Shown here: one piece after another, positions 2,288-60,287 of the stretch | Layout: every line of letters begins with the position of its first letter | Position numbering within the stretch: the stretch's first letter is position 1 | NCBI GenBank assembly: GCA_964017235.1 | Contig: OZ024935.1 | Location: 90,519,207 to 90,583,206, forward strand | DNA length: 64,000 nucleotides | Direction of reading: 5' to 3' | Origin: Sabellastarte sp. h YS-2021 | Lineage: Eukaryota; Annelida; Polychaeta; Sabellida; Sabellidae | Notes under the pieces: model-generated | The model's input: the letters and a program-made list of their open reading frames with translations, nothing else | Database searches by the model: none | What the model was told of the DNA's origin: nothing | Program-made: the position numbers and the translations under genes

Positions 2288-2357
2288 ATGCGTGTGACAT
2301 CACTAGTGAAACTGCTACTTTGGTTTCATTTTCAAAGAACACATTATGTGAGCCTTG
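2288..2357 (+). CDS. Gene A exon 1, putative signal peptide
   Basis: ATG in a GCCATGC context opens a hydrophobic N-terminus (MRVTSLVKLLLWFHF) and ends at a phase-1 donor G|GTATGT. That is the phase needed to join the acceptor at 5005/5006, giving a split Ala codon. The VTSL start matches exon 1 of gene B (MIAVTSLL), which supports homology. The hydrophobic core carries a Lys, so the signal is weaker than in B and D. An unseen upstream exon is the alternative. Confidence 0.6.
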
Positions 2358-5300
2358 GTATGTTTTGCAGTGAAGCTTGTAACTTCATTTCCTTTTCAGC
2401 CTTATATCAGTACAATAAATATAATAAATACAGTTCTTTTTGGGGATATTATTACTTAGTATTATTGATTAATTACAGTGACATAGTATTTCGTAAATAC
2501 ATGATTTAAAACCATTACTTATATCACAACATACCCAGGTCATTTGGGCTTATTAGTCACTACAAATAACATATCATATGGCAGTTAAGTGTACAGTAGA
2601 TTTAACATCTATATACTTGTACCTTACAGTTGGCCTCTTTTCCCCACATTATATTTATACTAAATTCATGTATACTTTTATTTTCTTATTACACATTGCA
2701 TCAATGAAGTGATTAATATAATTATAACAATCATTTATATATAACATAGTTTTAATGTGCATAAAGATTGCAACTAGATTTTGGTGGAGCATTATTTAGT
2801 GCCCATGGTACTTTCTAACATTTTTGTGTTAATTTTAATTAATTTTTAATTTGTATATGTTTCAGGATGAAAGTATATATTTTACAAACTCTTGCTTACA
2901 TTTCAATAAAATTTAGATTAAATAGCTACTGATACATTTGTGCAACTTCCATATTTAGAATGTGGGAAATAACAGCAAATGGGTTTTGATTGGGAATGTA
3001 CCCATTTAATACACTTTTTTATTTGTTTGGGGTTTTATGTCGCTTTCAACACTGTACAAGTCATATCACGACGGGTAATTGGAAGGGCAGAGGAAACCAG
3101 TACATACAGTTCACTAGGGTTCTGTACTGTAAACTGCCGACCAATGGCAAGCAACTACCAGCTTTCCCACTTGAGGCCATGACGGGGATCGAACCCCGGC
3201 CTCAAAGGTGGGAGGCGAGAGTGTTACCACTCTGCCACCGTGGCCCCCCTTTAATGCACTTAGTTCATGTAGAAATTCTATTATTGCCCCTTGAAACAAT
3301 ATATATGGTTAATTGGTTGGTAATATATATGAAACAATATATATGGTTAATTGGTTGATAATATATATGAAACAATATATATGGTTAATTGGTTGGTAAT
3401 ATGTATGAAACAATATATATGGTTAATTGGTTGGTAATATATATGAAACAATATATATGGTTAATTGGTTGGTAATATATATGAAACAATATATATGGTT
3501 AATTGGTTGGTAATATATATATGAAACAATATATATGCTTAATTGGTTGGTAATATGTATGAAACAATATATATGGTTAATTGGTTGGTAATATATATGA
3601 AACAACATATATGGTTAATTGGTTGGTAATATATGTGAAACAATTTCTATGGTTAATTGGTTGGCATCATTTTTGTTCCAACCCAAATTTGGCACAATTT
3701 GAACTGAAAAACTTATATATGCTTTGTCACAGTCAGACCCCAACTAACTAGTGTGTTAGCTTGAGAAAATCACACAACAGGAAGGAAAGAATTTATTTGA
3801 ACAAAATAATTTAATTACAATATGTACAAATCAGTGTTGAACCAACCAATACAGAATATATATTTAAAACAATAATAACTTAAACTTGTATAACTGTTAA
3901 TGACTTAAAAAATGTTATTGCGAGATTATTTAAATAGTTTCTTATCGATCACTCACAGATTATAGTCCATATAGCTGGATCAATTATATAGCCTGATCGC
4001 TTGAAAGTTTGTAGTCACCTGGTCTTGTATCAGTTGTAACAAACATCTCTGAAGAGTTGACTGCCTCTGATTGATATAGCTTCGAGAACAATGTGTTCGG
4101 TTATAACTGAGGTAAGAATTTCCTCAATTGGCACTATGCTGGACTTCTTGTCCCTGAGGTCTTCCACGAGTCTCCCCTTTTATTGCTGTGCTCAAATTCT
4201 TTGTTTTTGTGGACTTCACTTCCAGTTAATCTGCTAGATAGTGTCTTTTTTACCACACAGGTTGTTCAGTTAAAAAGTCCTTGGACTGTTTTTAACAATC
4301 CTTCACAGTTTTGAGTCGGCAATCCAATTTCTTCTGGGGTATAGAACTCCTGTCCCAACAATGCTAATCTGTAACTATGAGATGTCCAGCTTATATAGAG
4401 AAGTGATCAGAAACCTTACAGTTACAATATACACATTTTCTAAAAAAAATAACAACCTAAAACTTATACTTAATTAATCATAATAAACATTTCTTGAAAG
4501 TAATCCTGTTTTTGTTAAAACTGCAACTCACCTATCTTACTATTTCTCAATTTGACATACTTTCCTTACAAACAACACTCATCAGGATGTGAAATTGTAG
4601 GCCATTAACTGGAACATCTCTCTGCTGTAAACAGCTATAGAAATGATTTCTTGCAATTAACAAAGATCATCAGTGGCCTAGTTAGCTAGCAGGTTTGTCA
4701 TCTACTCACAGGCAACCATCTCTGTGTTGGTTCAACTCCAACAAGTGACAATGCTGAGGACCTGTCCCAATATGACTTGAACATATATTCATTAACGCAA
4801 ATGCAAGGTGTATTGTACTGAGTACATTGAACAGCCAATTAGTTCACATTTAACATGACAGGTGATAAATATAAATTCTACATGAAATCCACATCTCAAT
4901 TAGTACTGGACCAAGGGACAACCAAGCTATCAGGCTATATTTCTATTGCATTGATGCAGATGAGCTGGATCTTAAATTTATAGTTATTATTCTATACATT
5001 TCTAGCCGAACCATGCGAAGGCTTTTTTAACCAGACATGCATTTCTTGTGTGGATCAACCTCTGCAACTGCAATGTGACATTGGTGACGTCATCACAGGC
5101 TTTGTAAAGGCGGGTTTCCTTGACAACACACAGAGGAATCTGTCCTGTGTGTTCCAGGATGGGGATTGTATGGATGAGCCATTCCCATTGTTTGCAGAAA
5201 TTGCAGAGTGCCTCTGGAAGAAACAAGACTGCCAATTCACATTAGACCCTAAAGGTGAAAAGCCCAGATATGGAAAGTGTAACCTGGATTCTGAACCAGC

Positions 5301-8300
5301 TTATTTGATGGCAAGTCAGGTGGAATGTGTAGCAGGTAGTGTTTCGTTTGGTCAGCTTCATTCATATAGTGTATATTTTGTGAGTGAGTATCACTTTCCA
5401 ACAAAGAGTATATCAAATAGAAGCAAAATTTTCACAACTATACAAGTGGGCCATAGGGAGGCCCACTTCATTGCAAAGTGCTAGATTTTTCATATTTACT
5501 TATTTTATCTGATGTAGATAGGCCCTGGGAAATATGGAAGGGGGCCAATGAGAGGTTGAGCCAACTACCATAGAAAGAAAAAGGTTTACTTCAGGGAGTT
5601 AACAAAGTACAACACTGATATTTGCACACAGTGATCCATTAGTTTTGAGACAATCTTCCTCAGTTGTAAACTTTAACTTGGATCATTTGATCTTTTGATC
5701 ATTTGCATTTGAAAACTTATGTCTTCACTGTCTTTATATTTTGCTGTGATTCATGTTTTCTGCAGAAGGTAACCTTCATCGACTCTGTGCAACAGACAAT
5801 CAAGTGCTCGCCATCAATCCAGGAATGTATGGTTTCATCCTTAGTCCAAAGTTCCCCCAGCCATATGCGCAACATACATATAGATACAGAGAACCATGTA
5901 CAGTCACCATGGCAACCGCTAAAGGGATGGGTATCCAAGTTCAGAGTACATACATGGATTTGAAAGGTAAAACTAAAGGAAGTTGCCAAGAGCATTACAT
6001 TGAGTTCACCTGGGAGGACTACAGTGGGTCACATGATGTCAGACATTGTGGCAGAGATCCCTTACACGTGAAAATGACGTCACCAACAGCTGTGTTGACT
6101 TTTATGGTTAAATCTACTGATAACACAAACCAAGGTTTTGCTTTAAAATATACAGGTTTGTACATAGAATTTATTGTATGTGATTTTTTTCAAAATAGGG
6201 CATCACTGGTTTCATAACAATTATGATCTTAGCCGATATGAAACATAATATTTAATCCATGAATCTTAGAAGTTTGAACAAAATGCCTTTGCTTGAAAAA
6301 TTGGACTTCTTTTCGAATTAGATTGAAAATAACAAACTACGTGAGTTCACCATAATCAGTGTAGTAACCAAAATGGTTTGGTATGCAGTAAATATTTTTG
6401 TCAGTATATATATGTATATATATATGTTTTCCATTATATCAATATTTGGTAATGATCAAAGACGGATAGTTGAATAACAGTACCAACATTCCTGTTCTAT
6501 CTACATATCTGTGCAGTATGAAAATATTTTATTTCATTAAATGTGTCAGATTAAATCGAAGTAAATGTATGTTGCTACTGAATTTGTAATGCTATAAAAC
6601 CTCTACCTCAGTTTTGCTTTTCTGACTTGTCAATTGAAACCGCCCCAAAACTTTGAAAGCATGAACATGTAAGTCTTACCCCAGCCCAAGCATAAAGTGC
6701 AAGAACAAGTTCTGTGCTCAGAGACAGTATGATCATTTTCAAAAATTGTCCTGGCACAAACCAAATGGGAGCAGTTTTTGATCCAACAGGGGAAATGTTT
6801 CATGACATTTCCTGTGTGTTATGACTCCATCACTGCTACTTTCCCAAACATTTGACTATACAGTTACATGTTTTGTGATGCTAGAGATACTATCTGAACT
6901 GTGCAATATGACATTGAATTGTTTATCCTGGTACATTACTTGAAGACTAGACATTAGATCGCGTTCTTGTTTTCAATCAACTTCGAGGTCAACCCTTGGG
7001 TTTGAAACCCCTAAATAGGGATCCATATCCTGAATTTTTTAGGGATTTATTGATAATATCTGATTCATTAGTCATAATGTATTCCCATTAGAAACTTATT
7101 TTTCACATAAGGTGACATCCAGCTCTGGCTCGGTCCTGTACAAAAGTAATTAGAATGTGTTTGAAGACTTAAAAGGGATTTTTCACTAATTTTTAATTCT
7201 GGATAATTGGGTAAGGGAAAGCAAGCTGATCGGATCAGTTTGACCAGAAATACATAAAGGTCCCCTCAGTAAAAATATAAAGTAATGATTACTTTGTGTC
7301 ATGTTTTAGCATTTCCACTTCCTGAATCAGTGAGTCACATGACAACAAGATATCAGACCAAAACACTGGCTACCAATACAGGTATACATAGCTGTTTATC
7401 AGTAAATCTAAAAAAGAAATTAGCAGTCACACTTCAGACATAATTAAATTTCAAAAGTACATACATTTCCTCTTATTATTTTTATCTTACGTTTTAACTT
7501 TTTGAGTATTAATTCAATATCAGAAATAAGATTTTCTTCTCTGTAATTATTATCTCCCACCTGCAGCCAAAGGCCGTGGTCGGGAGATTATAAAACGCCT
7601 TCCGTGCGTGCATGCGTCCGTCCATTTGTCACATTTTTGCATAAACCTTAATATCTCATTCATTTATGAAGACATCTTCACCAAACTTCCAGGGAATGTT
7701 TATGGCAATGAAAACCTGTCTCTGCAAAATTTTAGCTTCATTTTGAAAAACAAAATGACCGCCATAGCTAATTGTTTGAAAATTGTAAAGGTGCTCTAAA
7801 TCTTGAAATATTCCAGCTAGCTTCATCCAATTTGCATAAAAGTTGTATGGCTAGAACAACTAGCCTGATAGTAATTGTGGCCTAGTTCAAAAACAAAATG
7901 GCCACCATATCACATATTTAATGTCAGAATTTTGTAACTTAGTGTAAGTTTGTGTTTGACGCAGCACACCACATTGTATAGAACAGACCATCAAAAGTCC
8001 TGGCCTTCAAATATTTTGCCTGAGAAAAATTTTGGCCTTATCTTGAAAAACAAAATGGCCGCCATAGCCAATTATTTTAAAATTATTAAGATGCTCTAAA
8101 ACTTAAAATATTACAGCTAGGTTCATCAAATATGCACAAACTATGTATGGGTAGGAAAGTTTGTCCTCTTCTTCAATGTCAAGTGGGGTTATCTTACTAC
8201 AAAGGCCTTACATCTCCTTTAGTTCTCCACTATTACTGATTCTAACGCAGGAGATAACCACTGCGGCAATGGCCTTGTTTTGTCTGAAACATGCAAATTT

Positions 8301-9599
8301 TGACTGGTCATTGCTTTTAATATGTAAAAGTTCTTGTCATAAGAAATATCCGCAATATATATTTTAATTGAAAGTCCGGGTTGATGATTACAATACTTCA
8401 GTTGCAAGCAACAGGTAACAGAATTTTGTACCTTAGTGTAAGTTTGTGTTTGACACAGCACAATACATTGTATAGATCATAATATAACAAGAATTGCTGG
8501 CCGCCCTAAATTGGCATTTTTTCGTGATTAGAATATATTTGCACTAAACCAGTTACAGGTTATAATGCACTCATACATCAAATAATATCAACTAATTCTC
8601 TCTTTAGTGGGGGCCCTTTTTAGGGACTGATAATGGAAGTTCCATGTAAAATTCAACTCATTAAATAGGCATATGACCAATCAGCTTACAGATTTTTGTG
8701 TGTCATTCAGCAAGATTTTCTACTGACTGACTGACCTATTGTTTAACTTTTTATGACAAACACTGGTCAAAACTAATACTTGTCTCATATTTGTATACAC
8801 CTATACACCCCTCCACCCCACCCAAATAGTCTCTAACTATATATAGCTTTAGGCTAGGAGGTCCATGTACACAGACGAGCTATGCAGTTCAGCTGTGACT
8901 GTTTTTTTTTGTTTTTTTTGTTTTGTATATTTGTGGTAAGTAATTTAACCTAGGTAATAAGATTATGTTAAATGGTTATAACTTGGGTTGTATCTTCATA
9001 ATTGTTCACCACCATGTATAGAATAGGAAGGATCGCAAGTAGTTTGTGATCATTTCAAACAGTTTAATATTGTCAAAAATTGTTGGTGATGAACTTGCAA
9101 TCCCTTCCAATTGGGAACATATCGCGAAGTTCCATAACTTCCGTACACGATGGGTTCACTATGACACTTAAGATCAGTGAGATGAAAAAAGATAAACCTC
9201 TCAACCTGACAATTTATAGGACCGCAAACCTGTCGCAAAGCATTAGCGCCAAGGTAGAACAGACCTTTTATGATAACTATACTAGATCCACTTATATATA
9301 TTTTTGGTCATTTGTTTTCAGAAATGCCAGCTGAATCACCCAGTGCAAAGAGCCAGAAGACAATGACAGATTGCACTAACCAGAACACTGTGTACTTTTT
9401 CCTCTCTATTGGGCTCTTATTGATACTCTTCATTATTCTGTTGATTTTTGGACTGGTTCTCTATTCTGTGAAGAAATCGCACAAAATGGCAATCGATGAA
9501 GCAAGGGAAGAGAACCAGTACAGGGCTTTGACAGACATGGATCTCAATAGAATGGATACAGCAGCTTCTGTTTCCACCTATCTGGTGGACAGTGTCTGA
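2288..9599 (+). CDS. Gene A: signal peptide - SUEL-lectin-like - CUB - TM receptor
   Basis: Predicted 379-aa type I surface protein. Exons: 2288-2357, 5006-5335, 5766-6155, 7310-7381, 9322-9599; every intron is phase 1 and the frame closes at TGA 9597-9599. Residues 1-23 form the signal peptide, about 24-133 a SUEL/rhamnose-binding-lectin-like domain with 10 Cys, about 134-263 a CUB domain, 264-287 a Ser/Thr-rich linker, about 311-334 the membrane helix, and 338-379 the cytoplasmic tail. Exon lengths match paralogue B (330 and 390 nt for the two domain exons). The ectodomain probably binds carbohydrate or another extracellular ligand; that is inferred from domain type only. No full-length match to a named protein is recognised. 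Exon 1 is the least certain part. Confidence 0.8.
3017..3249 (-). mobile_element. tRNA-derived SINE (minus orientation) in intron 1 of gene A
   Basis: Full-length copy of the window's main SINE. Read on the minus strand it has a tRNA-like head with A box TGGCAGAGTGG and B box GGTTCGATCCC, a central GGTCGGCAGTTTACAGTACAG body, and a tail ending GTCGCTTTCAACAC-complement and an (AAATA)n-like end. It is flanked by a 12-bp duplication TTTAATACACTT (3005-3016) / TTTAATGCACTT (3250-3261) with one mismatch. Confidence 0.85.
3294..3665. repeat. About 38-bp minisatellite, about 10 units
   Basis: Head-to-tail units built on GGTTAATTGGTTGGTAATAT followed by ATATGAAACAATATATAT. Units vary by a few bases (GCTTAATTGG, ATGTATG, AACATATA). 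It lies in intron 1 of gene A directly after the SINE. Long frames across it on the minus strand are artefacts of the repeat. Confidence 0.95.
3690..5005. other. Rest of intron 1 of gene A
   Basis: No coding exon seen. Around 4725-4790 is a fragment of a dispersed repeat (CAATGCTGAGGACCTGTCCC) that recurs elsewhere in the window. The intron ends in TTCTAG at 5005. Confidence 0.5.
5006..5335 (+). CDS. Gene A exon 2, SUEL-lectin-like domain
   Basis: One 330-nt exon, phase 1 to phase 1, encodes the whole domain. Ten Cys are present, starting with the C-x7-C-x2-C cluster (PCEGFFNQTCISC), then QC-DIGDVITGF, and later ECLWKKQDCQFTL and the closing VEC. Layout fits the SUEL/Gal-lectin fold. The usual rhamnose-binding motifs are altered: YGR is replaced by AGFLD, there is no DPC, and KYL reads AYL. 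Sugar binding is therefore not assured. N-linked sequons NQT and NLS are present. Confidence 0.8.
5766..6155 (+). CDS. Gene A exon 3, CUB domain
   Basis: A 390-nt phase 1-1 exon. It carries CUB signatures: GFILSPKFPQPYAQ (the usual G.I.SP.FP..Y), four Cys (RLC, EPC, GSC, HCG), FTWEDYSGS, and the closing F.L.Y strand (QGFALKYT). The acidic calcium-site residues are only partly recognisable. Acceptor is TTTCTGCAG at 5765 and donor ACAG|GTTTGT. Confidence 0.85.
6156..7309. other. Intron 3 of gene A, nothing coding seen
   Basis: AT-rich intron with a short TATATA/ATATAT microsatellite near 6406-6427. No exon or recognised element. Confidence 0.5.
7310..7381 (+). CDS. Gene A exon 4, juxtamembrane linker
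   Basis: Small 72-nt phase 1-1 exon (24 codons, AFPLPESVSHMTTRYQTKTL and on), rich in Thr and without Cys. It sits exactly where gene B has a 75-nt linker exon. Acceptor TTTTAG and donor ACAG|GTATAC are both good. Confidence 0.7.
7555..8530. repeat. Internally duplicated dispersed repeat in intron 4 of gene A
   Basis: Begins with CCAAAGGCCGTGGTCGGGAGATT. It contains two direct copies of a block with AAAACAAAATG(G/A)CCGCCATAG, near 7740 and 8046, each followed by a GCTCTAAA..TTAAATATT-type stretch. A second block (TTAGTGTAAGTTTGTGTTTG) occurs near 7940 and again near 8432. The pattern is a degenerate tandem duplication of one repeat, not coding. Confidence 0.7.
9322..9599 (+). CDS. Gene A exon 5, transmembrane helix and tail
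   Basis: Phase-1 exon (acceptor TTTTCAG at 9321) with a Ser-rich stalk, a strongly hydrophobic helix about residues 311-334 (VYFFLSIGLLLILFIILLIF), a basic stop-transfer KKSHK, and a 40-residue tail. The tail contains YRAL, a YxxPhi sorting-type motif, and ends in DSV, an acidic-x-hydrophobic terminus of the class III PDZ-ligand type. Both are motif matches only. Confidence 0.85.
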
Positions 9600-18197: not shown

Positions 18198-18270
18198 ATG
18201 ATTGCTGTGACGTCATTATTAAGTGCACTTGCACTTTGGTACTGCTCCACAGAAATGGTGTTTTCTGAAG
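18198..18270 (+). CDS. Gene B exon 1, signal peptide
   Basis: ATG (GCCATGA) followed by a classic signal sequence, MIAVTSLLSALALWYC, ending at a phase-1 donor GAAG|GTAGGC. Splicing to 20710 gives a split Asp codon and then SPCENLTNNTC. Length, phase and the VTSL start match gene A exon 1. Confidence 0.8.
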
Positions 18271-21200
18271 GTAGGCAGCATTTTGTAAAATAATACATAC
18301 ACACATGTTTGGGTTTAACATTGCTTGGAGTAAGTTCTGTATGTGAATATAAGTTAATTAAAGGGATGGAGGAGAGTAATGCATACTTATTGGTTAGGAG
18401 TCTGTATTGCAAACAACGGGACATTATTTACTGCCTTATATATGGTGCCGGGGTTAGAACAGAAACCTGAAAGATGGGACATGAGAGCGACCCACCACGT
18501 CATGATTGCAAAATATTCCAGTTTTGACTAATTTACTTTTCCAGGATAAAATCCCCAACAAAAAGTTTATAAGAGTCTGAGAGCTAGTTGTGCCAAGTTA
18601 TGTAAGGACCAATAGATTAGACAAAATATTGAAATAATCCCCAGCAGTGAGACCCCTGGGGCTTTATTAAAATATGTAAGTTGATACATTGGACACAGAG
18701 TGAACAAAAGTCAAACACCCTGGATTGATTCCAATGTACACAAAATTTTGTCGCCTCGAGACACCATAACATTGTTGGGGTAAACTCTGAACACGTAAAT
18801 GGCAACCGGACAATTATAAGTCATAATACTTTATTAAACAGCCATTACACAAATTACCATTAATTTTTAACTAAATGTAATATGTTTATTGATAAAAATA
18901 TTGAATATATTTGATATACTTAGGCCTTGGCAACAACACTTCATCCACAAATACTAAAGTACATGTTTCTTTATATTGGATTTCATTTCTTTGAGATTTA
19001 CCTCTGGTTAAATATTTACCTACAATATACACAGAATGGTTTCACTGGCGGAGTAGGAATACATTCAATGCCCATGTGGGAATCTGTTAAGAGATTCTTT
19101 CAGTGTACATAGTCAAACATTCCACTAGATACAATATACATAGCTTTACATTTCACTGAAAGTTGAGTGTTTATATTTTTCATGCACAAGTATTAGCTCT
19201 TTGCAAATATATCATCGGGCAATTACACCTCCTATGTCGGGGAGGGGGGGGGGGGGTAAAATACAATGTACTTAATGCCACTTATGACACTACATAAGAC
19301 TCTGATTACTGTTTACACTGGAAAAGAAAAAAATGTGTTAACTAAACTGATAGGATGCCTTACAGCCTTATAACACATCTAAAAGCATGATTACCTGGGT
19401 ATTTGCACATAGATTTCCCCTGTTAGAGTATCTTGGTCAGTGTTTTCCTTGACACAATTACTGCTTTTTGAGATAGTACTATATAAGTGGGAGTTTAAGC
19501 TAGAAGAAAGCTTTACTAATTCTTCATTTTTGAAGAAATTCACTAGAATGTATTTTCACAAATGTTTTTTCTCAACTTAAGACATTAATACTGATTTAAA
19601 ATTCCACAAGGAATTAGTAATCACTGTCCAGCCTCAATACCCAAAGAAAGGTGGGCTAACAGTCACTACTGTATTGACTTGGGAAAACATTTAACAGAAT
19701 TAAGCTGTTCATGTACACCTGTATATGAGATATGTGTTCCTATATTTGTTATAATATATGATATAACATAATTCTTATCAACCTATTACTCGTAATCTGA
19801 AGTTAGCAAAACACCTATTATGTTATTACTCTCCATAAAGTGGGTGCCCCTTATATTGACTTGCCAAACCTCGAACCCATACAAAGAGGTCTGATTTAGT
19901 GCTTAGTAGGTTTGGCAATCATAGGCTCTCACCCCTGTATGTGTTGGACTTTGCCAAGCTGCAATACTGAGGACCTGTCCCAATATGATCCTGGCTGAAT
20001 GGGGGTGTAAAACCCTAACTTCGACCTTTGCCAAACACACACAAATAAAAATCACACCCGTGGATGATTTGTCGTGTCTGTGGGAACAGAACTTGATTTC
20101 ATTTCAAGCTAGTAGTTGGTCTAGGATTTAATTTTCAAAGGCAGAAATGCCTTTTAATTGGCAAAGAAATGTTCAGATTGTTCGGGAAAGAGGGGTTAAA
20201 TAGTGATGTTGAACAATAAACCTGTTTTACACTTTGTGAGAGAAAGGCACTCCCCCCTACATATTCACACTGTAGGTTTACTCCATAATCAGTTACACCA
20301 TAATAAATACCTTAATTTAATTATCTTCTCTGATCATTCAGTGAGACTCACAAACTGCAAATTCATATTAAATAGAAAAACTGTGTTGGCACAAAAAGCT
20401 AAAATATATTCACAATTTAGTTGGACTATTTTCCATTTAAAGCAAAGAAAAAAAATAAAATGTAAATTATCTTTTGTAGCCTGTCTACACCAGAGGTTAG
20501 GGTTAATAGATTTAGCATTTTAAACCGCCAAGTTTCCCAAGGAAGGCTGAACCATTCTGTTTTTGATACTATGCCCATGAGTTAAACCAAATACATAGAT
20601 TGGTTAAGTACAAAACTAAAGAAATCCTTAATTAAAATTGAATACTAAATATTGCTATCTAATATAGATATATTGTGTGTTATCACAATTACGTCTTTTT
20701 CCCTCTTAGATTCGCCATGCGAGAATTTAACAAACAACACATGCACCTCTTGTGTGGGTGAAGAGATGCTACTCCAGTGTCCGGCTGGTCAAATTGTCAC
20801 TGGATTCCTCCTTGCTGGTTTTGGGAAAGACTCTGGAACAAATGCAGTGTGTGGATACCAGTCCACTGACTGTGTAGGAAAACCAGCTTTGCTAAATGGA
20901 TATTTTATGAGCTGTATGTGGAAGAGACGAGTTTGCCGCTTCACATTAACACCTTATGACTTTACCATAGGATTCCTGTGCCCAACAGTGCAAAGTACTC
21001 CAAAGTACCTGATGACCTCCCACTTGAAGTGTGTATCAGGTAAATTTGCAAATGCAACATATTGCAAATGTCTCTCATATCTTGTATATATTTAAATTAG
21101 TAAGTAAAGTTTTATTGCTGAGTAGATCTGATGTCAAAAAAGGATATATCTAGATTCATATAATGGAACGTAACTGTCCATGTGTGGCTGTCAAGAGTAT

Positions 21201-31698: not shown

Positions 31699-31735
<37 letters not shown>

Positions 31736-46930: not shown

Positions 46931-47024
46931 ATGATTTACTTCGAGAAATTCTGTGATATTCCAAGGACACTTACTTTGGTTTTGGTCACAGTTTTAGTGG
47001 GATGTATCAAATCTACGTTACAAG
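46931..47024 (+). CDS. Gene D exon 1, signal peptide
   Basis: ATG then a hydrophobic core LTLVLVTVLVGCI and a phase-1 donor CAAG|GTAGGT. It joins 50782 to give a split Glu codon and MSPCPDFQNGTC. Same phase and position as exon 1 in A and B. Confidence 0.8.
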
Positions 47025-48589: not shown

Positions 48590-48620
<31 letters not shown>

Positions 48621-51600
48621 AAAAAAAGTGAAAATAAGTGATCTCTATAAGCATGAGACTCACTAGAGCTCGTGCTTAAGTAGACTCACATTTAGACTGA
48701 TACCTCTCCAGGAGCTAGCTTTTAAGTAAGTATTGTCCAGGTCACATCTTAACGGCTCCAAAAAGAGACCCTCTTATGTTAGTTATACAAATTTGAAGAC
48801 CAAGAGCCCCCCACACCTCAGCTTCTGAAGCACCCGAGTGGTATTTTAAACATTTCAAGACAGCTGTTCTGAACGCAAAATAGGTAGTTTGTTGTATAGA
48901 ATGACAATGGAGATACTCTCTACAGAAATACAAAGCAGACTGAATTTGGCAGGACCACAACCGGAAGTAAACGAGTACCCTTCAGTTGTAGCTCGTGACT
49001 CCAGTAAGGAAAGGTGTGAACTAGGTATATGTGAGAAATAAAGAATTAAAACCTTGGCATAATGATATCATATTACCATATTTTTAGATGTTTATCTTAA
49101 TCAATATATGGATGAAAACACAGTATCAGATGCCACTTGTACTTTTTACATTATTTGAGATGCATATATGCAATGATAAATTTGGCATGTAAAGTTGTAC
49201 TTGAACCCTTTATTTAGCTTGTGTGGATATAATTACCAAGGAGGTATTACATTCATGATCATTTGTCATTTTGTCCGTTTGCGTGTTACCAGAATTACAC
49301 AATACTACTAGTTGGATGTTCATGAAAGAATTAAAAAGAGGGGTCTTGGTCCAGCTTATATCCCATTAAATTTTGATGGTCGTTTAGATCACCGTCTGGA
49401 TACAAAAATATCAAAATCCTCATTTTATTATTAAGCTGGTTATTTTTTATTATCATTATTTTTTTTTTCAAAAATCATGCATGCCTTGGCAGAGATATGT
49501 GCTCTATCTCTTGTTACTATGTGCATTGATAATCAATTTATTGTTGAGCAGTCAGTATTAACATGTGAACCAGCTAGGCACCACTGTCTCCGCACCCCCA
49601 CCCCTCTGTAACTTCCCCCCACTCCCCCGATAACAATACTTGTATAGATATCTAAAGGCTCAGACACATCAATGACAACATGTTCCATTGCTATCTGATA
49701 GTGACATCGGAATTGCTATACTGTATCTTGTCTTATACATGAACACCAATACAACTCAGCAGATACTTTGAAAAATTTGCAAATGTTTATTGGAAATGAA
49801 AGGCATCAACAGCATAAAACACAGGGCCTTTGATTTTTCTTTCGGGTTTTCAATGAGTGTGAAAAAGGTATCTTATCTGAGTTTATCGTATCAGTTCGCG
49901 TTGGTGCGGAGAGACCTGTAGTGATCGATTAATTGCCATTTTGGCATTTAATCTCTTATTGCTCACAATTGAATTTGAGTCCAGCTAACAGCAAGATGTA
50001 CACTGAAGTGCACTGATGGGCCACTTGGATATGATCTTAACTGTAAAAGTGTTGTAAGAAATTCTTTGCATTTGACTCTCCTGGTCAGATAACTTTTTAT
50101 GTCTCTGACAATGTTCTCCCACCATCTTGGATGCTTTACAATCCTTACGAAAAAATCATATTATTAATCAAGAAAAGCTATGGTAACCATAAAATAAACT
50201 TGTAAAATCAATCAGTACTCATTGACATAATTCTGTTCTTGTACAAAAATCCTTGCAAGTGTGTTCTTAAAAAAAACCAAGCACTATAAATTGTGTTCTG
50301 TCACAAAATCCTTCTGCTTCAGTTGAGTTGTTGTACAAAGTCTTTATAAAAATTGTTTTCTTGTACAAAATAATAAATTGTGCTTTTTTCATGTAAATTA
50401 TACTGTTTTGTATATATACATAAAAGTTGTACTATTATACATAATGCCTGTCATTATATGTTAGAGTAGAATAGAATAGAATCATTTATATAGCACAAAA
50501 TTGATGCAACATCCTCTAATGCGCTTAAATACTAAGTGATAGTGTGTTGAGTATAAATATGCAAGTGTACTGTATTTTTGCTATATATTTATAAATGTTG
50601 TATTCTTCTCTGATATCTTCACTAAATATTGTACTTATTACAGAAACATTTTTGTGCATAAATTATATCTTGTTTGTGATTATCCAATGAATACAATTCA
50701 CACACATTGTGATCGTCTGCAAAAGCTTACTTGTGAATTGTATTTCTAGTTCTTTACATAGTTTTTATTCATACATTACAGAGATGTCACCCTGTCCAGA
50801 TTTCCAAAATGGTACGTGCAAAGCATGCCTTAATGAACCTCTGTCCTTGACCTGTGGAGAGAACCACACTGTGATTGGTTTCATCTATGCAGGATTTCGG
50901 GCCAACAGCCAATCAGATTGTATCCCTCGACCGGAAGACTGCTTTGCAGAACCAGTGCCGCTTATGGCAAAGGTAGAGAAGTCTAAAATGCCCCAGCAAG
51001 TTTTCCTATATTTACAATATATAAAAATAACTTATAATTTAATTATCTGTCCCTTTGGCCCAGCTAGTGGATGACAAAATCAGTAAGGAACTCGTAGAGC
51101 TTTGGCTTTTGAGTTCTGCGGTAAAAGTGATAATGTGTTGAGTATAAATATATAATTATCTTGTATTTTTATATATTTATATGCAATATCTCCATTCACT
51201 ACAGGGCTCAAAGCGTTATTTGACCCATCCGACTGTACAAGTACAGCCCAACTCTCAAGTGCTTTATGAACACCAAACATCTGTACACGTGTGCATGTTT
51301 AAAAAAGATATGGTACAAATTTGAGCCTTACGTAAGGCTTGGCCGCCACGTGACTTTCAAAGGCTAACGATAAATCACAAAAATGGAACTGGGGTGTACC
51401 AGTAGGAGGAAGGCTTTTACATTTACAATAAGGGCTAGCTGTTTTGTGATTTTGGCTGTTTTGTGATTTTGCTGTTTGTTCATAATACCATTCATGCTAC
51501 TGCAGGTGGCACGTTAATAAAAAAAAATATCTCTCTCTCTTTACAATTAACTGAATGAATGCAATTGGCTATCGCAATTTGCAAAGTTTGATGATTGCTG

Positions 51601-54600
51601 TCGGAATATGTACATAGAGGTTTTATTCAACTAACACATGAGATCTGGGATTTAAGATAACTTTAATACCTACTTTAGTTACATGATCTGAGAATTTCAG
51701 TAGCCATCCCATCTCAGATCTCTTAGACCATCGAGTCTAATCTCAGTCATGTCTTTAGGCGGAAAACAATGGTAGCTACTTGCTGATATCATGTAGCTGG
51801 TAGTACAAGATCAAATATATAGATGCTAATTACACATAATTCTCTTACATTATGGTAAAGACTAGCCATGTTGGGCAAACCGCAAAAAATATGTCAAAAG
51901 CTTTATTTGCCATTTTTTTGTGAACTTGAAATATATAAATAAATACGAGCTTCAATTGTAATGAAGATTAAATTTACTTGAAATACTAAACCAAGACAAC
52001 CACTGTGTCAAAAATTATACCTGCTATATTTATTTTATTTATTTATTTGGGGTTTTACCTCGGTTTCAACATTATACAGCTAGTCATATCACGATGGGTA
52101 GTTTTTGTGAGTAGAGGAAACCAGTACACACAGTTGGTCAAGGTTCTGTACTGTAAACTGATGATCAGTGGAAAGCAACTACCAACTTTTCCATATAAGG
52201 TCGGGGGTTTGAACGGCTTAAAATACCTCAAAGGTGGGAGGCCACCATGGTCCTAGACTTTCTTCAAGTCATTTTGTCTTATCTATTATACGAGAACTGA
52301 ATGACTTTTTTCAAGAATTTGGTGCTGAGAGCAGCAGACAAAAGCTTTTTCACCCATCCACTGGATTCATATATAATGATTCCATGTGTGTCAGATTTTG
52401 TGGAATTAGAAATACAAAGACTTTGAGCAAGTCTACTGTGATCTACTATAAACAAATTATCAAAATAACTGTTAAAAATCGTATAGTGTGTGGAAAAACG
52501 TGTTCTTGTAAATGAATATTTTGTAATATTTTGAAGAAGATTAATGTGAATAAGATCTGCTGTTTCACACATGATTGAATTTTATGGATCAGTTCTATAT
52601 ATGTGACTGGATTGTAAAATATTAAACCACTCCCAATGTTTAAATAGAGTTCAAGATATTTTTCTAATAGTTTTCCAATTAACATTGCCATTGGGCCTTA
52701 TTGGGGTCTGATTGTCTCCGGAAAACATTGCGATTGTTTCCCGATCCATCCCATTGATTCCCGAAGATATTTTTGATTCTTCCCGAACGGGTTGTGAATA
52801 CTAGGATCGTTTTAAGATCCAAAAGAGAGCTTTACGAATGTTAAAATAGGTTTAGAATATGAACAAGATCTGGTAAGAATTGCCCATAATTTTATGATAA
52901 TTTCAAACAGGTTTTCATTAATATCGGGGACACACACGATTCACTGCAGAACATACCAAATATTTCCCGAACCAAACCAGTCCCGAGATAGTCCCAAAAT
53001 GACCTTTCTACTTTTTCAACCTGGACAGAATAACAAACTGGCATGCACTGATATGCATCCTCAGTCAATGTTAAATGGAATAACTGAACTTTGTCACTTT
53101 GCTAGGTCATATCTAGACTTGCTCCAAGTCTTTAATTGTATTGCTATCCAACATATTGACTTAAACAGTTAAATTTAAAAATAGAAACTTTCAGGAGTTC
53201 ATTATACCTCAAGCATTCTGCTGTTTCTTCAAAAGTCATACAGTACCCATATATTATACAAAACACAAACGGATTTGGTGAAAATCAAGGTCATATCTGG
53301 CTTTAGACAGGTCTTTCACCATATAGTCTCTCCACTCCTTTTAATGCTGTTTTTGTAACAGTCTTACTTTCTTGGGATTTGGACTTTCCGTCTCTGACAT
53401 ACCATGCAGCTAATTCCCCCTGGAGGGTGCTCTCACCAATTTACAAGTGCTTATATTCTCAAGTATATGTTCAGATTTTCCAGTGCATGTGGAAGAAGCC
53501 AAGCTGTCTGTTTACACTCACACCCATTGATTTCCCGAGAGGACATGTCTGTGATTTCTCCCACAAACCTCAATACTTACTGACGTCACAGACACAGTGT
53601 GTTCCAGGTAATTATGGCGTCACATAAGTATTTCTTCTGGCACATGCTTGAATATTGCTGTGGTTTAATATTGTAACAGACAGACCTGCCTGACTTCAAG
53701 ATAATGCTTTTAATGGCCTTAAACTGAAGATCCTGCCTTACTGTTGTATTAACTGTACTTGTAATATTTGTAGACTTCTTGCTATGTCCCATTTCGTGTT
53801 ATGATACTGATTTCTTGGCCTCTACAGCAACGGTAAAACTTATATGGTGGACTGTAAATATTTGCTGGAGTTTTATATATATTATACAGTAGCGTAGGAA
53901 GCATATGAGGGGGGGGGGGGGGGGGGGGGGGGGGGGACAAAGTTAAGTTCTGCAGTTGTGTAAACTTATGACACCAGTGGAACTAAAACCATTCTCAAGG
54001 ACCCAGTAAACATTACAAACGTTTATAAACGTTTATAAACCTAACTATCAACGGTTTAGATAAGGTTTAAAATGATGGGTCCCTAAACGTTTGCCTATAA
54101 ACGTTTATAGGCAAACGTTTATTAACGTTTATATATAAACGTTTATAAACATTTATACACGTGTTTAAAATCTGGAGAAATATTTCTGTAAGTATATCTT
54201 GCTGTATCACTGTTGTTTGATTTGTTTATTTGGGGTTTTACGTCGCTTTCAACACTGTACAGGTCATATCACGACGGGTAGTTGGAAGGGCAGAGGAAAC
54301 CAGTACATATAGTTCGCTAGGGTTCTGTACTGTAAACTGCCGACCAACGGCAAGCAACTACCAGCTTTCCCACTTACGGCCATGACGGGGATCGAACCCC
54401 GGCCGCAGAGGTGGGAGGCGAGAGTGTTACCACTCTGCCACCGTGGCCCCCCACTGTTGTTTGAAGCCATCATTATATTCTAAGTAGAGATATAAAAGTA
54501 TATAATATAATCAAATTATATACTTCTATATATCTACTTAGAATGTAATGATGGCTTCAAACAACAGTGATACAGCAAGATATAGTAACAGAAATATTTC

Positions 54601-57600
54601 TCCAGTTTCTCTCAAAATGGCTGTGCTGATGTCATCATCCCAACTGAAAGTGAGGTTAAGGTATTTTTAACCCTTTGTAAAGGTTTAAAAACGTTTATAA
54701 ACCAAACTAATGTTGCTGAAACGTTTATAAACCCTTAATATTGAATAATTGTCAATATTTAGGTTTATATTTGGTTTAAAAAACGTTTATAGGTTTACTA
54801 AACGTTTATAAACGTTTGTATACTGGGGAGTCAAGGGGTTGTTAAGTGTAAACGTAATTACTTCTGTAATTTTGGGCTTTTTTTGAAGTCCTAAAGATAT
54901 TCTTTCAAACTTTTTGTATCATTTTTAGCGGAACAAAGGTAAAGTGGGCAGAATCTGCAAAATAGTCTGAAGAAATTGTCCTTAATCTTAAATGAATCTT
55001 CCATGAATGTACAACAAACTTTTACACTAACAGAAGTTACTGTATCATTGACAAAATACAAAAAAAAATATTCAATGGTCATTTTTTGCTTAAAAACACT
55101 AGCATGATTAACAATACATGATCAAATTCCAACTGGCAAGTTAACATTAGCAAAATTTGGGAAGAAATGGGAGGATGGGGGCATTCAGAAACTAGAAAAT
55201 CGCTCAAAGACCTTCATTAGTCCATAGGATCCCTAAACTCATACCCATTCTAGATCCACACTAATGTGCAAATAGTCAAACCTAAACTGTATAAAAGTTT
55301 GTTATAGTTGTATTCGGCATGTAATTATAGGCAGCCAGCTCTGGCATGATGAATTTGAATCCCACATGTGGCAATGCTGAGGGCCTATCCCTGTATGATT
55401 CTCTGGCTATTGAATGGGACGTAAAACCCTATACTTTAACCTTTGTTGTATTACAAACTTACTGTATATTTATGGGAATAAAGTGCTTTAAAAATAAGTT
55501 GTCAACCCGGGTTTAAGTCGAGCATTAATAGTGTCAATGGGTTATAAATGGTATATAAATGCATTTATATTTTGATGACCTATATATTGATCTTTCAATG
55601 TTACTTACGTTACCTAGATGCCAAATTTAAAAGTTCTAAGTAAAATATTTTTGAAGTTATTACATGCCAAAACAAATCTATGTGGTGGCGATGGCGGCAT
55701 GATTGGGCTTTATTAATCATATTCTTGTTTCCATCATTATAATATTCAAAGATCCAATTACAATCATCTTCCAGAAATCGACACTACATGTAAACCAGGG
55801 TATGTACACCTCAGTTCGGTTTTAGATAAGGCAATCTCACCCATCTATAGCATCCTCTCAAAAAACTCTTTCATGTAATTAAAATACCAAAATGTATACT
55901 GACTGATATAAAATAAATTTTGTTTTAAAAAATTCTCAAACTTTTATTGGACAGGTAGAGTCTGTCAGCTAGTCGTGCATAAGGCTCAAACTCATACCCT
56001 ACCTATTTTTTCAAAGTTTATTCCCCTATTCCACCAAAGGATTAATCCCCGATTGGTCCTGGGACCCTTGACCCTTGAGAGTCTGTGAAAAAAATCTGAA
56101 AAATGGGCGGGAAAATGGAATCTTGATGCAGGTGTGGGATAAAGCCCAGATCGCCCTCAGGAAGCCTCAGACATCCTTAGACAAGTCACTATCGTTCCTT
56201 GACTATGAGGTTTCAACCCCGATCCTGTCGGGGATATACCGACTGGGTATCAGACTGGTCTGAGGCTTCCTCAGGCCTCCTGGGACTAATAACAGATTTC
56301 CTAAGACAGCAATGGGGGATTTTTGTTGAGGTCTGGAACTAAGTCCACGCCTTCTGGGACTAAGAGTCCACGGCTTAAGAGTTGATGGATGCCTCAGACA
56401 ACATAGGATTGTGTAAATGTGGGTCTGAGGAGGCCTCGGGAAGCCTGAGACTGGGGACTTTGTGGGTAGGGGTGAAAGTGGATCGGTTACAGTCGTGAAA
56501 AATATCAAACATATTTGATATTTATACCGACCACAACAGATCCAAACAGACTGGCCATGACTCTGAATCCGATCCCCAAAAACCAGTAATCGGGAGCCTT
56601 AGTCTTGTGGTGGAACAGGGGCATAAGGTTTTAAGTCCCGTTCAACAGTCAGGGTCATTGGGACAGGTCCTCAGCATTGTCATTAGTGGAAGTGAACCGC
56701 ATCATATCTTTTTCAAACACGTGCACAGATAGTTGGTATTTGAAAAGGCACTGGTGCATGATAGGAGATATTAGCTCATTGGACAGAGGAGCCTTAGAAG
56801 TATGATGATGTAACAGCCAGCACATATAGGTGTGCATTATGTAAACCGATATTATGTCAACTGAAAGTTTTCTTAATTATAAAGAAACTGGAGCCTTAAT
56901 GTGAAGGCTAATCATCACCATGTAGTATAGACCTACAGTCGCTTGAAGGAAATAAACAGAAACTTCCTTATATCTAGTCCAATTTTAAACATCTTTTCAC
57001 CATTGTCTTCCAGAAGTATGATGCTGGTATGTCACTACCAGACCTCTAAACCCTAGGTGTAATTTGGACTTAATTCAGTTGTATCTTTAAATCTGTTAAT
57101 GCAAATCTTGAAATGTTTCTGCAGAGACCTTTTGAAAACCCTGGTTAATTGTCAGTCATAATCTTGTTAATTTGCACTGTATTGTACTTATTTCAAAGAC
57201 AGTGATCTACATTCAATATGTCACGACCCAGGCAGTCACATGACCATTAACAGTGATGTCACGGGTTATGTCATCAGTCCAAACTTCCAGCAACCATACA
57301 GCCAGAACATGAGACTGAACATGGAAGAATGCTGGTAATTAATGATGGTGTTTTAATTGAGATTTATACAATTATTATGCATATATATTTACTTTACACA
57401 TCTTTACATATGTGTGATTTTGGTGACTGCACGGGCCTCTGATTTGTCCTGCTGTAAAAGCTCAAAGTTTGATTATTTTGTGTTACTGTTAGAAGGATAC
57501 CCCAATTTTGGCAATTTCACATTGTGGTATATTTTACCTTTCCTGCCACATGGTTTGATGAGGGACTTCATCGTGTAATTTGTGTCATGCAATTTATCAA

Positions 57601-60287
57601 ATGGAATTTGATTATTGTTTCTTAATTTTAAAGGATGGTCTCAGCATTAGCTCTACAGACCCTGTTTTGCGTTTCATATTTCAAATGCTCAGTTCATGCT
57701 GCAATTCATTCCTCCATATACTGCCGGGCTTCTGTCTGTTAACTTTGCATACTGAGTCATTTTGTGATGTTGGTGAAGAGACATACAAAAGCTTTCAAAT
57801 GTCCAAAATTTCAGCTTACCATATGCATTATGGTTAACTTCCATAGCCAGCTACAACTGCATATTGTCCAATATTTTCTATAACTGTTCCACTACCTTTC
57901 CTTTCAGTTCTGTATTATTCTGTCTCTTTCTGTGACAGTTTTCTCTCCAGTTAACTTGTATATTTGCTGTAGTGCCAATGTAACTTTTCTGTATGTACCT
58001 TTTTTAATGTACCTTTTTCTGTTAATATGTCTTTTCTGTGCCATTCATAGCCATTGTCCTCCCAAGGCCAATTCCAATCCAAAACAAAATGGCTAAAAGT
58101 TTGTCAAACTGATAGAGGAGTTTGTAAACGCATTTCAAAGAAGCTAGAGCTATTCCCTCTCTGTTATTTCTGCCATCAATAACCAATGTAAATACCATCT
58201 ATAGTGTGATCTGGACATAACTGATATGCACATTTTGTATTCCATAGGGTCACCCTTCATGCTAGTCCTGGGTTTGGGATCTGTCTGGAGAGTTTATACA
58301 TGGATCTTCCCAGCAAGAATCCCAAGACAGGGATCTGCACAGGGGACTACGTGGAAGTCAGCTGGGAAACAGAAGGGAGTGATGACAAATCATCTAGTGT
58401 GTACTGTGCTGATGACATCATCAGTATATGTGTATTTTTCTCTGATGTCACTCTGATGTTTGTGATAGCACTAGAGGATCATACAAAACATGGATTTGCC
58501 ATTAAATATAACAGTAAGACTGATTTTTCTTTTCTGTAAAAATGTGCTCCTTATGTTATTAATTTTCCTTAATTTCCCCTTTGAGTTATTGTAGCTGTGG
58601 TCCAAATTAAAAGGACTTCACGGACCAAGTGATCTACAAGTTTATTGAATGATCACTATGCTCTCGTCTCTTGTAGTATTGGCTATTCTCTAATTTTATT
58701 TGTAAATAAACACAAAAACCATTTCACTGAGTTCTTGAAAAAAAAATTTAAATTTTATATTATTCAAACAAAGAAAGATTTTCTTTAATCAACCATGTTT
58801 TCCGGACATGTCTTTGGGGGTGTTTCTGGTACACATAATGTAGTAAATTACTGTTATATCTTTTTTCACCTCACATCAAAAATTGTCTTTGACATGTAAA
58901 TAAGTGTCTACAAATTTCTTGTATTTATGGAGCCTGTATTAGGACAGTGCAGACTATTTATTATGTGCCAAGTTTTGTGCACAAGAAGATCTCATCTGAC
59001 AGCAGTGAGTTAAGTCATTTACACCACTTCACTATCATGTGATAAGGAGATCTTCCCATGAGGCCAAAATAAGTAAATGGTCACCTCTTATCTTATTTAA
59101 TTAGTTTTAGCACACAATATATACACACTGCATAACAGCAGGTGAATTTTTCTTCATTTATTACCCTGTTCACACTAGAATCCGTGTTGACAAGGATTGA
59201 GGGTTGAAGCAGATTGAAGCAGATTTATCTTAATCCGGGCTGAGTGTCCTCACTACAGAGCTTAATCTGGATTGAGAAGTGTCCAAAAATGAGTACAGTA
59301 AAACTTCCAAATTTAGATGAATTTATGTTAAATTGTTTAAATGGAATCTTTTTTTCAATATGGATAAAATGACACAATTAATTAAAATATGCAAAATCCC
59401 TACATTATGTTATATCATACAGTAAAATAGTTTAATAACCTTTTATAATTAAAACAAGTATTTTATATTATTAAGTTTGTTAGTTTTCCAACAACAGACC
59501 AATTGCAATCTTTTTAAATAGTCTGCTTAATATATATTCTTACTATAATTACAAACATGTATTTTATGTCAAATTGCAATCATCCAGAAATCACACAACA
59601 GACACTTTTGGTGGCCTTTGTGTCAATCATGTACTCCTGCTTACAAAGGATTAAGATATATATATGTTAAGTTAAACAATTGTTATAAGGCAATAAGTCA
59701 ATTGGGTACAGTAACAATCCACTCAATCTTTGTCAACCCGGATTGAGAGGGTTCACACTACAAAGGGGGTTGAACCAATCTGCTTCAATCCACCTCTTGA
59801 GTGGGGGTTTGGATTTACCCTTGTCAACCCGGATTGTGAGCGTTCACACCTAATCCCAATCTGCTTCAATCTGTGTCAACCCGGGTTGAAACACAAGTCT
59901 GAACGCCCAGTATATCTGAAACATGTGGCTAACGTGACACTGATTACTCGTTCATATTTTTCACCAGGAATAAAAGAATTAGACATCGATGCCAGTCTCA
60001 TTTCGATTCCCACTGAATCTCAACCAGTTCCCACTATAGGAGTCACTTCGGAAGATGCTGAACATGTCCTTATCACCAAGGTAGTCATCTCTGTCTTCAT
60101 CAGCCTGGTCATTATCTTGAGCATAGTCATGGTGATCGTGTGTGTGGTGTGTGTGCTGCAAAGAAGACAGCATCATCAGCATAATGTTAGAGAAAGCCCC
60201 GGCATCATGTCAGGTGGAGTGAGGTTTGTCACACTGAAAGAAAATACACAAGATACAACACACGCAGGAGCAACAGGACATATCTGA
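46931..60287 (+). CDS. Gene D: signal peptide - SUEL-lectin-like - CUB - TM receptor
   Basis: Predicted 379-aa paralogue of A and B. Exons: 46931-47024, 50782-50972, 53475-53607, 57199-57334, 58248-58513, 59968-60287; the frame closes at TGA 60285-60287. Signal peptide 1 to about 31, SUEL-like about 32-139 (10 Cys), CUB about 140-274, stalk, membrane helix about 312-337, tail 338-379. Unlike A and B, the SUEL domain is split by a phase-0 intron and the CUB domain by a phase-2 intron. No separate linker exon was found; the last exon is longer and supplies the stalk. The CUB part has extra Cys. The tail starts LQRRQHHQHN and has no similarity to A or B. Gene span is over 13 kb because of repeat-filled introns. 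Confidence 0.83.
48495..48575 (-). repeat. 5S-rRNA-derived sequence (pseudogene or SINE3-like)
   Basis: On the minus strand it reads GTTAGTACTGGGATGGGTGACCG (positions about 48499-48521), preceded by GAAGTCAAGCGA. These correspond to the internal promoter of 5S rRNA (GAAGCTAAGC, then GGTTAGTACTTGGATGGGAGACC). The 5' half and the 3' end are too diverged for a functional 5S gene. A relic of a 5S-headed SINE is the likeliest reading. Confidence 0.55.
49236..49515 (+). repeat. Dispersed repeat copy
   Basis: ACCAAGGAGGTATTACATTC, GAATTACACAATACTACTAG, GATCACCGTCTGGATACAAA and CTTGGCAGAGATATGTGCTC outline a near full-length copy of the family also at 34440, 36379, 42235 and 60950. Confidence 0.72.
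50782..50972 (+). CDS. Gene D exon 2, first part of SUEL-like domain
   Basis: 191-nt exon, phase 1 in and phase 0 out. SPCPDFQNGTCKAC, LSLTCGENHTVIGFIYAGF and PEDCFAEPVPLMAK align with A and B. Donor AAG|GTAGAG lies between what are adjacent residues in the paralogues. Sequons NGT and NHT present. Confidence 0.82.
50973..53474. other. Intron 2 of gene D (absent from A and B)
   Basis: Splits the SUEL-like domain. Apart from the diverged SINE at 52028 it shows no defined element and no other exon. Confidence 0.6.
52028..52252 (-). mobile_element. Diverged SINE (minus) in intron 2 of gene D
   Basis: TTTATTTATTTATTTGGGGT start, TCACGATGGGTAG, GAGGAAACCAGTACACACAG, then a poorly kept head (CAAAGGTGGGAGGCC). 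Duplication not clear. Confidence 0.75.
53475..53607 (+). CDS. Gene D exon 3, second part of SUEL-like domain
   Basis: 133-nt exon, phase 0 in and phase 1 out: IFQCMWKKPSCLFTLTPIDF, HVCDF, PQYLLTSQTQC. It rejoins exon 2 with no loss or gain relative to A (PFPLFAEIAECLW versus PVPLMAK+IFQCMW). Acceptor TGTTCAG, donor CCAG|GTAATT. Confidence 0.82.
53885..53940. repeat. GCGTAGGAAG MITE fragment with poly-G
   Basis: GTAGCGTAGGAAGCATATGA matches the left end of the MITE at 39577 and runs into 28 consecutive G (53909-53936). Probably a truncated copy whose G-rich subterminal part has expanded. Confidence 0.65.
54002..54827. mobile_element. Long foldback element with AAACGTTTATA arms
   Basis: Ends CCCAGTAAACATTACAAACG and AACGTTTGTATACTGGG. 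Arms contain many AAACGTTTATA repeats near each end, and the inner arms pair over about 90 bp around a centre near 54505 (GGCTTCAAACAACAGTGATA on the right matches the left-arm sequence cut by a SINE). No ORF. Left arm is longer only because of that SINE. Confidence 0.85.
54221..54451 (-). mobile_element. tRNA-derived SINE nested in the foldback arm, 13-bp TSD
   Basis: Excellent copy: GGGGTTTTACGTCGCTTTCA, the full body, GGATCGAACCCC (B-box complement) and CCACTCTGCCACCGTGGCCC. Flanked by CACTGTTGTTTGA at 54208-54220 and 54452-54464. The right arm of the foldback shows the uninterrupted empty site. Confidence 0.96.
56021..56623. mobile_element. MITE, copy 2 of the TGCCCCTGTTCCACCA family
   Basis: Ends TTCCCCTATTCCACCAAAGG and TGTGGTGGAACAGGGGCA. 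Shares GATTAATC, CCTGGGACCCTT, GATCGGTTACAGTCGT and CGACCACAACAGA with copy 1 at 12756 but has about 250 bp more in the centre. So copy 1 is an internal-deletion derivative or copy 2 carries extra sequence. Confidence 0.8.
57199..57334 (+). CDS. Gene D exon 4, first part of CUB domain
   Basis: 136-nt exon, phase 1 in and phase 2 out. DSDLHSICHDPG, GYVISPNFQQPYSQN and MEEC align with the first third of the CUB exon in A and B. The chosen acceptor is TTTCAAAG at 57198; the AG four bases on would hit a stop. Donor TGCTG|GTAATT. Confidence 0.75.
58248..58513 (+). CDS. Gene D exon 5, second part of CUB domain
   Basis: 266-nt exon, phase 2 in and phase 1 out: WVTLHASPGFGICLESLYMD, TGDYVEVSWE, VYCADDI, SICVFF, HGFAIKYN. 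More Cys than in A or B (GIC twice, VYC, SIC), so disulphide pairing probably differs. Donor AACA|GTAAGA. Confidence 0.82.
59161..59912. mobile_element. Foldback MITE ending about 55 bp before the last exon of gene D
   Basis: Left TACCCTGTTCACACTAGAAT then TTGACAAGGATTGAGGGTTG; right TCAACCCGGGTTGAAACACA then GTCTGAACGCCCAGTA. Inside are several GATTGAAGCAGATT / AATCTGCTTCAATC pairs. Flanking TA on both sides. The 3' arm is an open frame that runs on into the transmembrane exon. Confidence 0.82.
59968..60287 (+). CDS. Gene D exon 6, stalk, transmembrane helix and tail
   Basis: Phase-1 exon after CACCAG at 59967. Stalk with Pro/Thr (PTESQPVPTIGVTSEDAEH), helix about residues 312-337 (VVISVFISLVIILSIVMVIV), basic and His-rich LQRRQHHQHN, tail ending GATGHI. 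Translating upstream in the same frame enters the MITE, so the exon start rests on the acceptor and on homology of position. Confidence 0.8.

Follow-up and report, generated by a model that had tools for sequence, protein, structure and literature searches.

A 64,000-nucleotide stretch of the genome of the sabellid polychaete Sabellastarte sp. h YS-2021 (assembly GCA_964017235.1, contig OZ024935.1, here called C11, positions 90519207-90583206; referred to as the window) carries three neighbouring genes, A, B and D, which together with two further genes on the same contig, E and F, form a small and old subfamily (five genes in this assembly). The five products are predicted to be type I single-pass surface proteins in which a SUEL-fold domain and a CUB domain would face outward, followed by a membrane helix and a short, non-catalytic tail. 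We read them as an old family of adhesion-type receptors or co-receptors for protein ligands, a reading to which we assign, as a whole, a probability of about 0.52. We consider the architecture itself to be highly probable, the protein ligand and the mode of action less so.

Gene models, domains and kinship

When A, B and D were rebuilt exon by exon from the DNA, all three genes were found on the same (+) strand, every intron was bounded by GT-AG, and the complete open reading frames (ORFs) encoded 379, 377 and 379 amino acids (aa), respectively, reproducing the lengths given in a preliminary description of this DNA. The encoded order in each is a signal-peptide exon, a SUEL-like domain with 10 Cys, a CUB domain, a single helix and a short tail. 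The exons are as follows (window coordinates; rebuilt models, with additional evidence in brackets):

2288..2357, + strand: A exon 1, with start codon and a weak signal peptide (ATG, GT donor, phase 1)
5006..5335, + strand: A exon 2, SUEL-like, 10 Cys (GT-AG, phase 1-1; structure model and PDB ranking, see below)
5766..6155, + strand: A exon 3, CUB (PF00431, E 2.3e-7, 31.6 bits)
7310..7381, + strand: A exon 4, linker (GT-AG, phase 1-1)
9322..9599, + strand: A exon 5, transmembrane helix, tail and stop (hydropathy 3.22)
18198..18270, + strand: B exon 1, signal peptide
20710..21039, + strand: B exon 2, SUEL-like (also BLASTP and alignment)
21990..22379, + strand: B exon 3, CUB (PF00431, E 2e-8, 35 bits)
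23577..23651, + strand: B exon 4, linker
23942..24207, + strand: B exon 5, transmembrane helix, then a YSP-containing tail that ends in HGEA, and stop (hydropathy 3.36; motif comparison)
46931..47024, + strand: D exon 1, signal peptide
50782..50972, + strand: D exon 2, SUEL-like, first part
53475..53607, + strand: D exon 3, SUEL-like, second part
57199..57334, + strand: D exon 4, CUB, first part
58248..58513, + strand: D exon 5, CUB, second part (PF00431, E 6.1e-6, 27 bits, spliced protein)
59968..60287, + strand: D exon 6, linker, transmembrane helix, tail and stop (hydropathy 3.43)

A and B have five exons each, all of their introns are in phase 1, and their domain exons are equal in size (330 nt for SUEL, 390 nt for CUB), as had been claimed. 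D has six exons, with its SUEL-like and CUB domains each divided over two; its domain borders are again in phase 1, and the introns within the two domains are in phases 0 and 2. The ten cysteines, the domain order and the single membrane pass of the preliminary description are all borne out by these models, with one strong helix from about residue 316 (mean Kyte-Doolittle 3.2-3.4). Two elements of that common order need qualification: the signal-peptide exon is present in all three genes, but the peptide is weak in A, whose first exon resembles that of B (VTSL...LW), and the linker occupies its own exon in A and B but has no separate exon in D.

A profile search of both domains and a structure prediction had been proposed as checks on the domain assignments. 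The CUB domain exceeds the Pfam cut-off of 21.4 bits in A, B and D (the query for B being 270 aa long, that is, its first 264 aa and six residues from intron read-through), whereas PF02140, the SUEL profile, has no match at E<=1 in any of these three, nor in E or F. PF00431 reaches 19.9 bits in E, below the cut-off, and has no match in F. The CUB fold finds further agreement among solved structures, with 1spp and 1sfp among the matches and cubilin as the closest relative. The SUEL-like domain has no Pfam or PDB match by sequence. Its predicted structure in A (pLDDT, the predicted local distance difference test score, of 81.8) ranks latrophilin-lectin and rhamnose-lectin chains first in the PDB, rather than an unrelated fold. 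The eight SUEL cysteines align across the family, which carries two more beyond this framework. On this moderate, model-based evidence, a SUEL-class fold for the first domain is supported but not proved.

BLASTP identities are 34-40% between A and B, 38% between A and D and 30-31% between B and D, and given E-values of 8e-76 to 9e-49 this likeness is not due to chance, which upholds the local paralogy proposed earlier. We searched the 1.786-Gb assembly (647 contigs) with the SUEL and CUB domains of A and obtained 10 matches, which fall on exons of these three genes and on two more loci on C11, so that the hunt for additional copies suggested at the outset has, within this genome, yielded two. 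E (C11:90475992-90476738) and F (C11:51839823-51840581) are both on the minus strand; E lies 42.5 kb upstream of the window and F about 39 Mb from it. With 7 and 10 matches, respectively, E and D as queries recover the same five genes, and no further close member was found in this assembly at E<=1 with A, E or D as the query (all 16, 10 and 12 candidates scored).

E and F each carry SUEL and CUB together in one open exon with phase-1 splice sites on either side, and downstream of it a phase-1 exon encodes a strong helix followed by a short tail (at 51833172 for F and near 90465732 for E). Their first exons were not identified in light scans. Full retrocopies are ruled out for both, as they retain splice sites and distant transmembrane exons. 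Because E and F join both domains in one exon, the SUEL-CUB pairing is not an artefact of gene modelling, and this counters, for that join, the possibility raised with the preliminary description that the exons belong to separate genes. The notion that SUEL, CUB and helix exons were drawn together from different genes could still appeal to introns of 0.3-4 kb and to models for A, B and D that are known from DNA alone. However, the SUEL-CUB join is nearly settled by E and F, the domain order and phase-1 domain borders recur in A, B and D, the exon lengths recur in A and B, and the transmembrane exon joins in phase 1 in all five members, such that we regard an artefact as having hardly any probability.

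Third codon positions are the most divergent in all ten pairs of the five members. For A and B the non-synonymous divergence (dN) is 0.55 and the synonymous divergence (dS) 2.07; across the family dS is at least 2.07 or cannot be estimated, with no estimate in six of the ten pairs. Since third positions differ most and dS is high or not estimable, the five genes are old paralogues, and A and B, the only window pair with a dS estimate, are under purifying selection. The local expansion of the preliminary description therefore holds insofar as the paralogues adjoin one another, but the subfamily comprises only five old genes.

The tails, which had been called divergent, are so in A and D, which lack common motifs, but in those of B, E and F the helix is followed by Y-(D/S)-P, and HG occupies positions -4/-3 from the C-terminus, giving a shared C-terminal HG-x-V/A. 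When the five tails were shuffled, Y(D/S)P appeared in three or more of them in 0 of 20000 shuffles, and any dipeptide common to three or more at equal distance from the C-terminus in 113 of 20000. Since the motifs were picked after inspection, they are to be taken as a lead only.

Sugar-binding residues and proposed function

YGR and DPC are motifs of sugar-binding rhamnose lectins, and both are present in several ordinary SUEL domains of this genome. At the aligned places of the five family members YGR reads GFL, GFG, GFR, GFR and GWR, with D, E and F retaining Arg at its final position, and DPC is missing from all five. In mouse latrophilin-1, according to PMC2430599, the Glu at +1 of the first Cys and a Lys in loop 2 matter for rhamnose/galactose binding, and every substitution tried strongly cut or abolished the binding of sugar. 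Directly after the first aligned SUEL cysteine, A and B have V, gene D has L, E has D and F has G, so that Glu occurs there in none of the five, and the loop-2 Lys (Lys120 of latrophilin-1) is found in B and E and not in A, D or F. Under the known Glu rule, sugar binding would not be expected for any member, and the word 'lectin' in the earlier label of these receptors appears doubtful.

One observation weighs against this interpretation. A and B carry an extra cysteine nearer the N-terminus that is followed by Glu (PCEG and PCEN), although hhalign and MAFFT agree with the distance to the following cysteine in putting the first SUEL cysteine after that extra one. It is because of this Glu that our confidence in the whole reading, and in a protein ligand, is lowered to the level given here. 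The same paper argues that rhamnose-binding lectin (RBL) domains attached to receptors bind proteins (PMC2430599), and this, taken together with the loss of the sugar-binding residues, makes a protein the likelier ligand; by analogy, we consider such a ligand to be somewhat favoured.

The mechanism we propose is that the SUEL domain does not bind rhamnose or galactose and would, together with the CUB domain, bind a protein ligand, along the lines proposed for the lectin domains of latrophilin and EVA-1. Given the lack of a catalytic domain, the protein would act as an adhesion receptor or co-receptor, with the chances of co-receptor action evenly poised, and the tail motifs of three members (Y-D/S-P and HG-x-V/A) may recruit a cytoplasmic partner. 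A compact SUEL-CUB family with degenerate sugar sites would offer ligand screens an ectodomain that is small and soluble.

SUEL and CUB-type pairs elsewhere and rival explanations

PF02140 matches occur at no fewer than 124 places in the genome (150 of 175 candidates scored), none of them in the window, and on contig C4 they form arrays. Searching the genome with the CUB-like second domain of one C4 array gene gave 88 matches. This domain falls below the Pfam cut-off (four of five members match PF00431 at E<=1, the best at 0.0025), one member has a weak match to DUF7805 (E 0.024), and against the PDB cubilin comes first (E 1e-4, over 30 positions). We counted as a pair any CUB-like match that is preceded on its own strand, within 5 kb, by a PF02140 match, and drew for this only on the 69 SUEL matches (out of 124) that lie on C4 and C19; 67 of the 88 CUB-like matches were paired, using 67 of the 69 SUEL matches, and 21 were unpaired. 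Sixty of these pairs sit in five tandem arrays on C4, which far exceed the window cluster in size and hold 60 SUEL and 67 CUB-like matches in total:

C4, 15.2 Mb: 11 SUEL, 11 CUB-like
C4, 28.4 Mb: 21 SUEL, 24 CUB-like
C4, 90.1 Mb: 12 SUEL, 12 CUB-like
C4, 113.4 Mb: 11 SUEL, 15 CUB-like
C4, 123.0 Mb: 5 SUEL, 5 CUB-like

One more SUEL/CUB-like pair, outside the count of 67, lies on C3 (71.89 Mb), and a few SUEL domains with ordinary CUB neighbours were also seen by eye. The pairing is thus not peculiar to the window cluster. In the four C4 regions read, all 12 complete units have a sushi-like and a transmembrane exon before the next SUEL exon or the end of the stretch, a count that omits one of the 13 SUEL exons read (28589346), which stands at the end of its stretch; sushi exons were assigned by their four-cysteine pattern, and one such exon has no Pfam match. 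The SUEL and CUB-like exon borders are in phase 1 in the two units checked. On C3 (84.71-84.73 Mb) SUEL and ordinary CUB exons alternate and are followed by a strong helix candidate; these exons perhaps form a single protein of repeated SUEL-CUB units. On C2 (83.35-83.46 Mb), partial CUB matches with high scores are densely clustered and perhaps represent a cubilin-like gene or a gene array.

Profile alignment gives the window CUB domain a probability of 97.4% against the C3 CUBs and of 0.4% against the C4 CUB-like domain, with which close kinship is rejected; for the window SUEL-like domain against the C3 SUELs it is 1.6%, indicating no close kinship. SUEL and CUB-type exons with phase-1 borders are used more widely in this genome, and we read the C11 family as a single branch of that use. 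It is conceivable, though we put this forward only tentatively, that such exons encode the extracellular part of a large and undescribed class of receptors with one membrane pass, with the C11 genes as an old, stable branch and the C4 arrays as a diversified recognition repertoire of distinct SUEL domains and homogenised 3' exons and tails. The standard SUEL profile misses the window genes, which raises the question of whether the receptor repertoire is undercounted by it.

Among three neighbouring array genes, identity is 65-86% in the SUEL exon, 89% in the CUB-like exon and 91-96% in the tail, and dS is 1.84 in one SUEL pair and not estimable in the other two, 0.18-0.34 in the CUB-like exon and 0.09-0.11 in the tail. 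As dS, too, declines from the SUEL exon towards the tail, the drop towards the 3' end points to gene conversion or an exchange of exons, not to positive selection. The latter is rejected for these three genes, with dN/dS at or below 0.46 in every pair and exon with an estimate (two of the three SUEL pairs being without one). The array tail exon matched just four sites genome-wide (E<=0.01), and so tails differ between arrays.

These arrays also supply the main rival to adhesion-type function, namely immune recognition, in which microbial surface glycans or proteins would be the targets of the ectodomains, with the C11 genes as a small branch of a repertoire that includes C4. The number of tandem pairs, the contrast between conserved tails and more variable SUEL exons, and a bivalve SUEL lectin that agglutinates Gram-negative bacteria (as PMC8878817 has it) all fit such a role. 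Set against it, however, are the loss of the aligned sugar-binding Glu in all five C11 genes, the small size and age of their family, and array divergence that fits conversion or exon exchange without positive selection, and we therefore judge it unlikely. Less probable again is that these are endocytic or scavenger receptors whose CUB captures cargo and whose tails carry sorting signals: cubilin has 27 CUB domains against a single one here, and the candidate signal YRAL is confined to one tail and is not in the other four. Recognition proteins of gametes or the egg coat, for which egg SUEL lectins (PMC2430599) and spermadhesin CUBs such as the matched 1spp and 1sfp offer a general precedent, seem more improbable still, as the precedents are secreted whereas A, B, D, E and F have a membrane helix, and nothing in our analysis ties the genes to gametes. 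An old family of adhesion-type receptors or co-receptors for protein ligands is thus the reading that we prefer.

As for the rest of the window, an aminotransferase class V exon (PF00266, E 2.8e-5) lies between B and D in the region 33927-37800 (+ strand), where ORFs at 36615 and 37550, which have no Pfam match, appear by eye to continue the gene. Inside this region a GIY-YIG ORF (35775-36272; PF01541, E 6.2e-7) probably derives from a Penelope-like retroelement. A 23-bp tandem repeat occupies 39401-39578 (7.6 copies) and 40118-40566 (19.4 copies), the second being open in several frames. An interspersed element with similar translated ORFs recurs by eye at 3000-3250, 25690-25917, 29130-29552 and 54220-54450; it is probably mobile, and its translation should not be read as a gene. 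An Rfam scan of the window gave no match.

Comparison with known systems

The lectin domain of latrophilins (ADGRL1-3, LAT-1) provides the top structural matches of the first domain of A and is likewise attached to a receptor, and the titles of the matched entries name the protein partners teneurin, FLRT2 and TOL-1. Latrophilins are seven-helix G protein-coupled receptors with olfactomedin and GAIN domains, whereas the window genes encode 377-379 aa in complete ORFs and have a CUB domain and a single strong helix. Secreted rhamnose-binding lectins such as SUL-I and CSL3 differ in that our family lacks the Glu, YGR and DPC at the aligned places, has two extra cysteines and is predicted to be membrane-bound. 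In the CUB co-receptors neuropilin and Kremen the partner domains are coagulation-factor, kringle and WSC domains; compared with these and with cubilin, the family has a single CUB and none of those partners.

Closer to hand, the C4 array genes have the same order of SUEL, CUB-type domain, helix and tail with phase-1 borders (two units checked), but their SUEL is recognised by Pfam, their CUB-type domain is distant, and they have an extra sushi-like exon between CUB and helix that is not in the window models, where A and B have linker exons of 72-75 nt and D has none. For other animals, two surveys give 3 SUEL genes in Aplysia (PMC9334734) and 23 SUEL-domain-bearing proteins in a mussel transcriptome (PMC5549309).

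Whilst a SUEL-CUB receptor is not described in the titles and abstract openings among the open-access matches listed, the 'undescribed' status suggested earlier is, within that open-access literature, not established. PMC2430599 names latrophilins, PKD1-like proteins and EVA-1 as the membrane proteins of metazoans that carry SUEL/RBL domains. The last of these (EVA-1/C21orf63) is described there as a single-pass protein with two RBL domains that acts as a co-receptor for SLT-1/Slit, with CUB not mentioned in the passages concerned. The window genes resemble EVA-1 in placing a SUEL-class ectodomain with degenerate sugar-binding residues on a single-pass protein, and differ from it in that A, B and D have one SUEL-like and one CUB domain, in place of two RBL domains, before their single helix.

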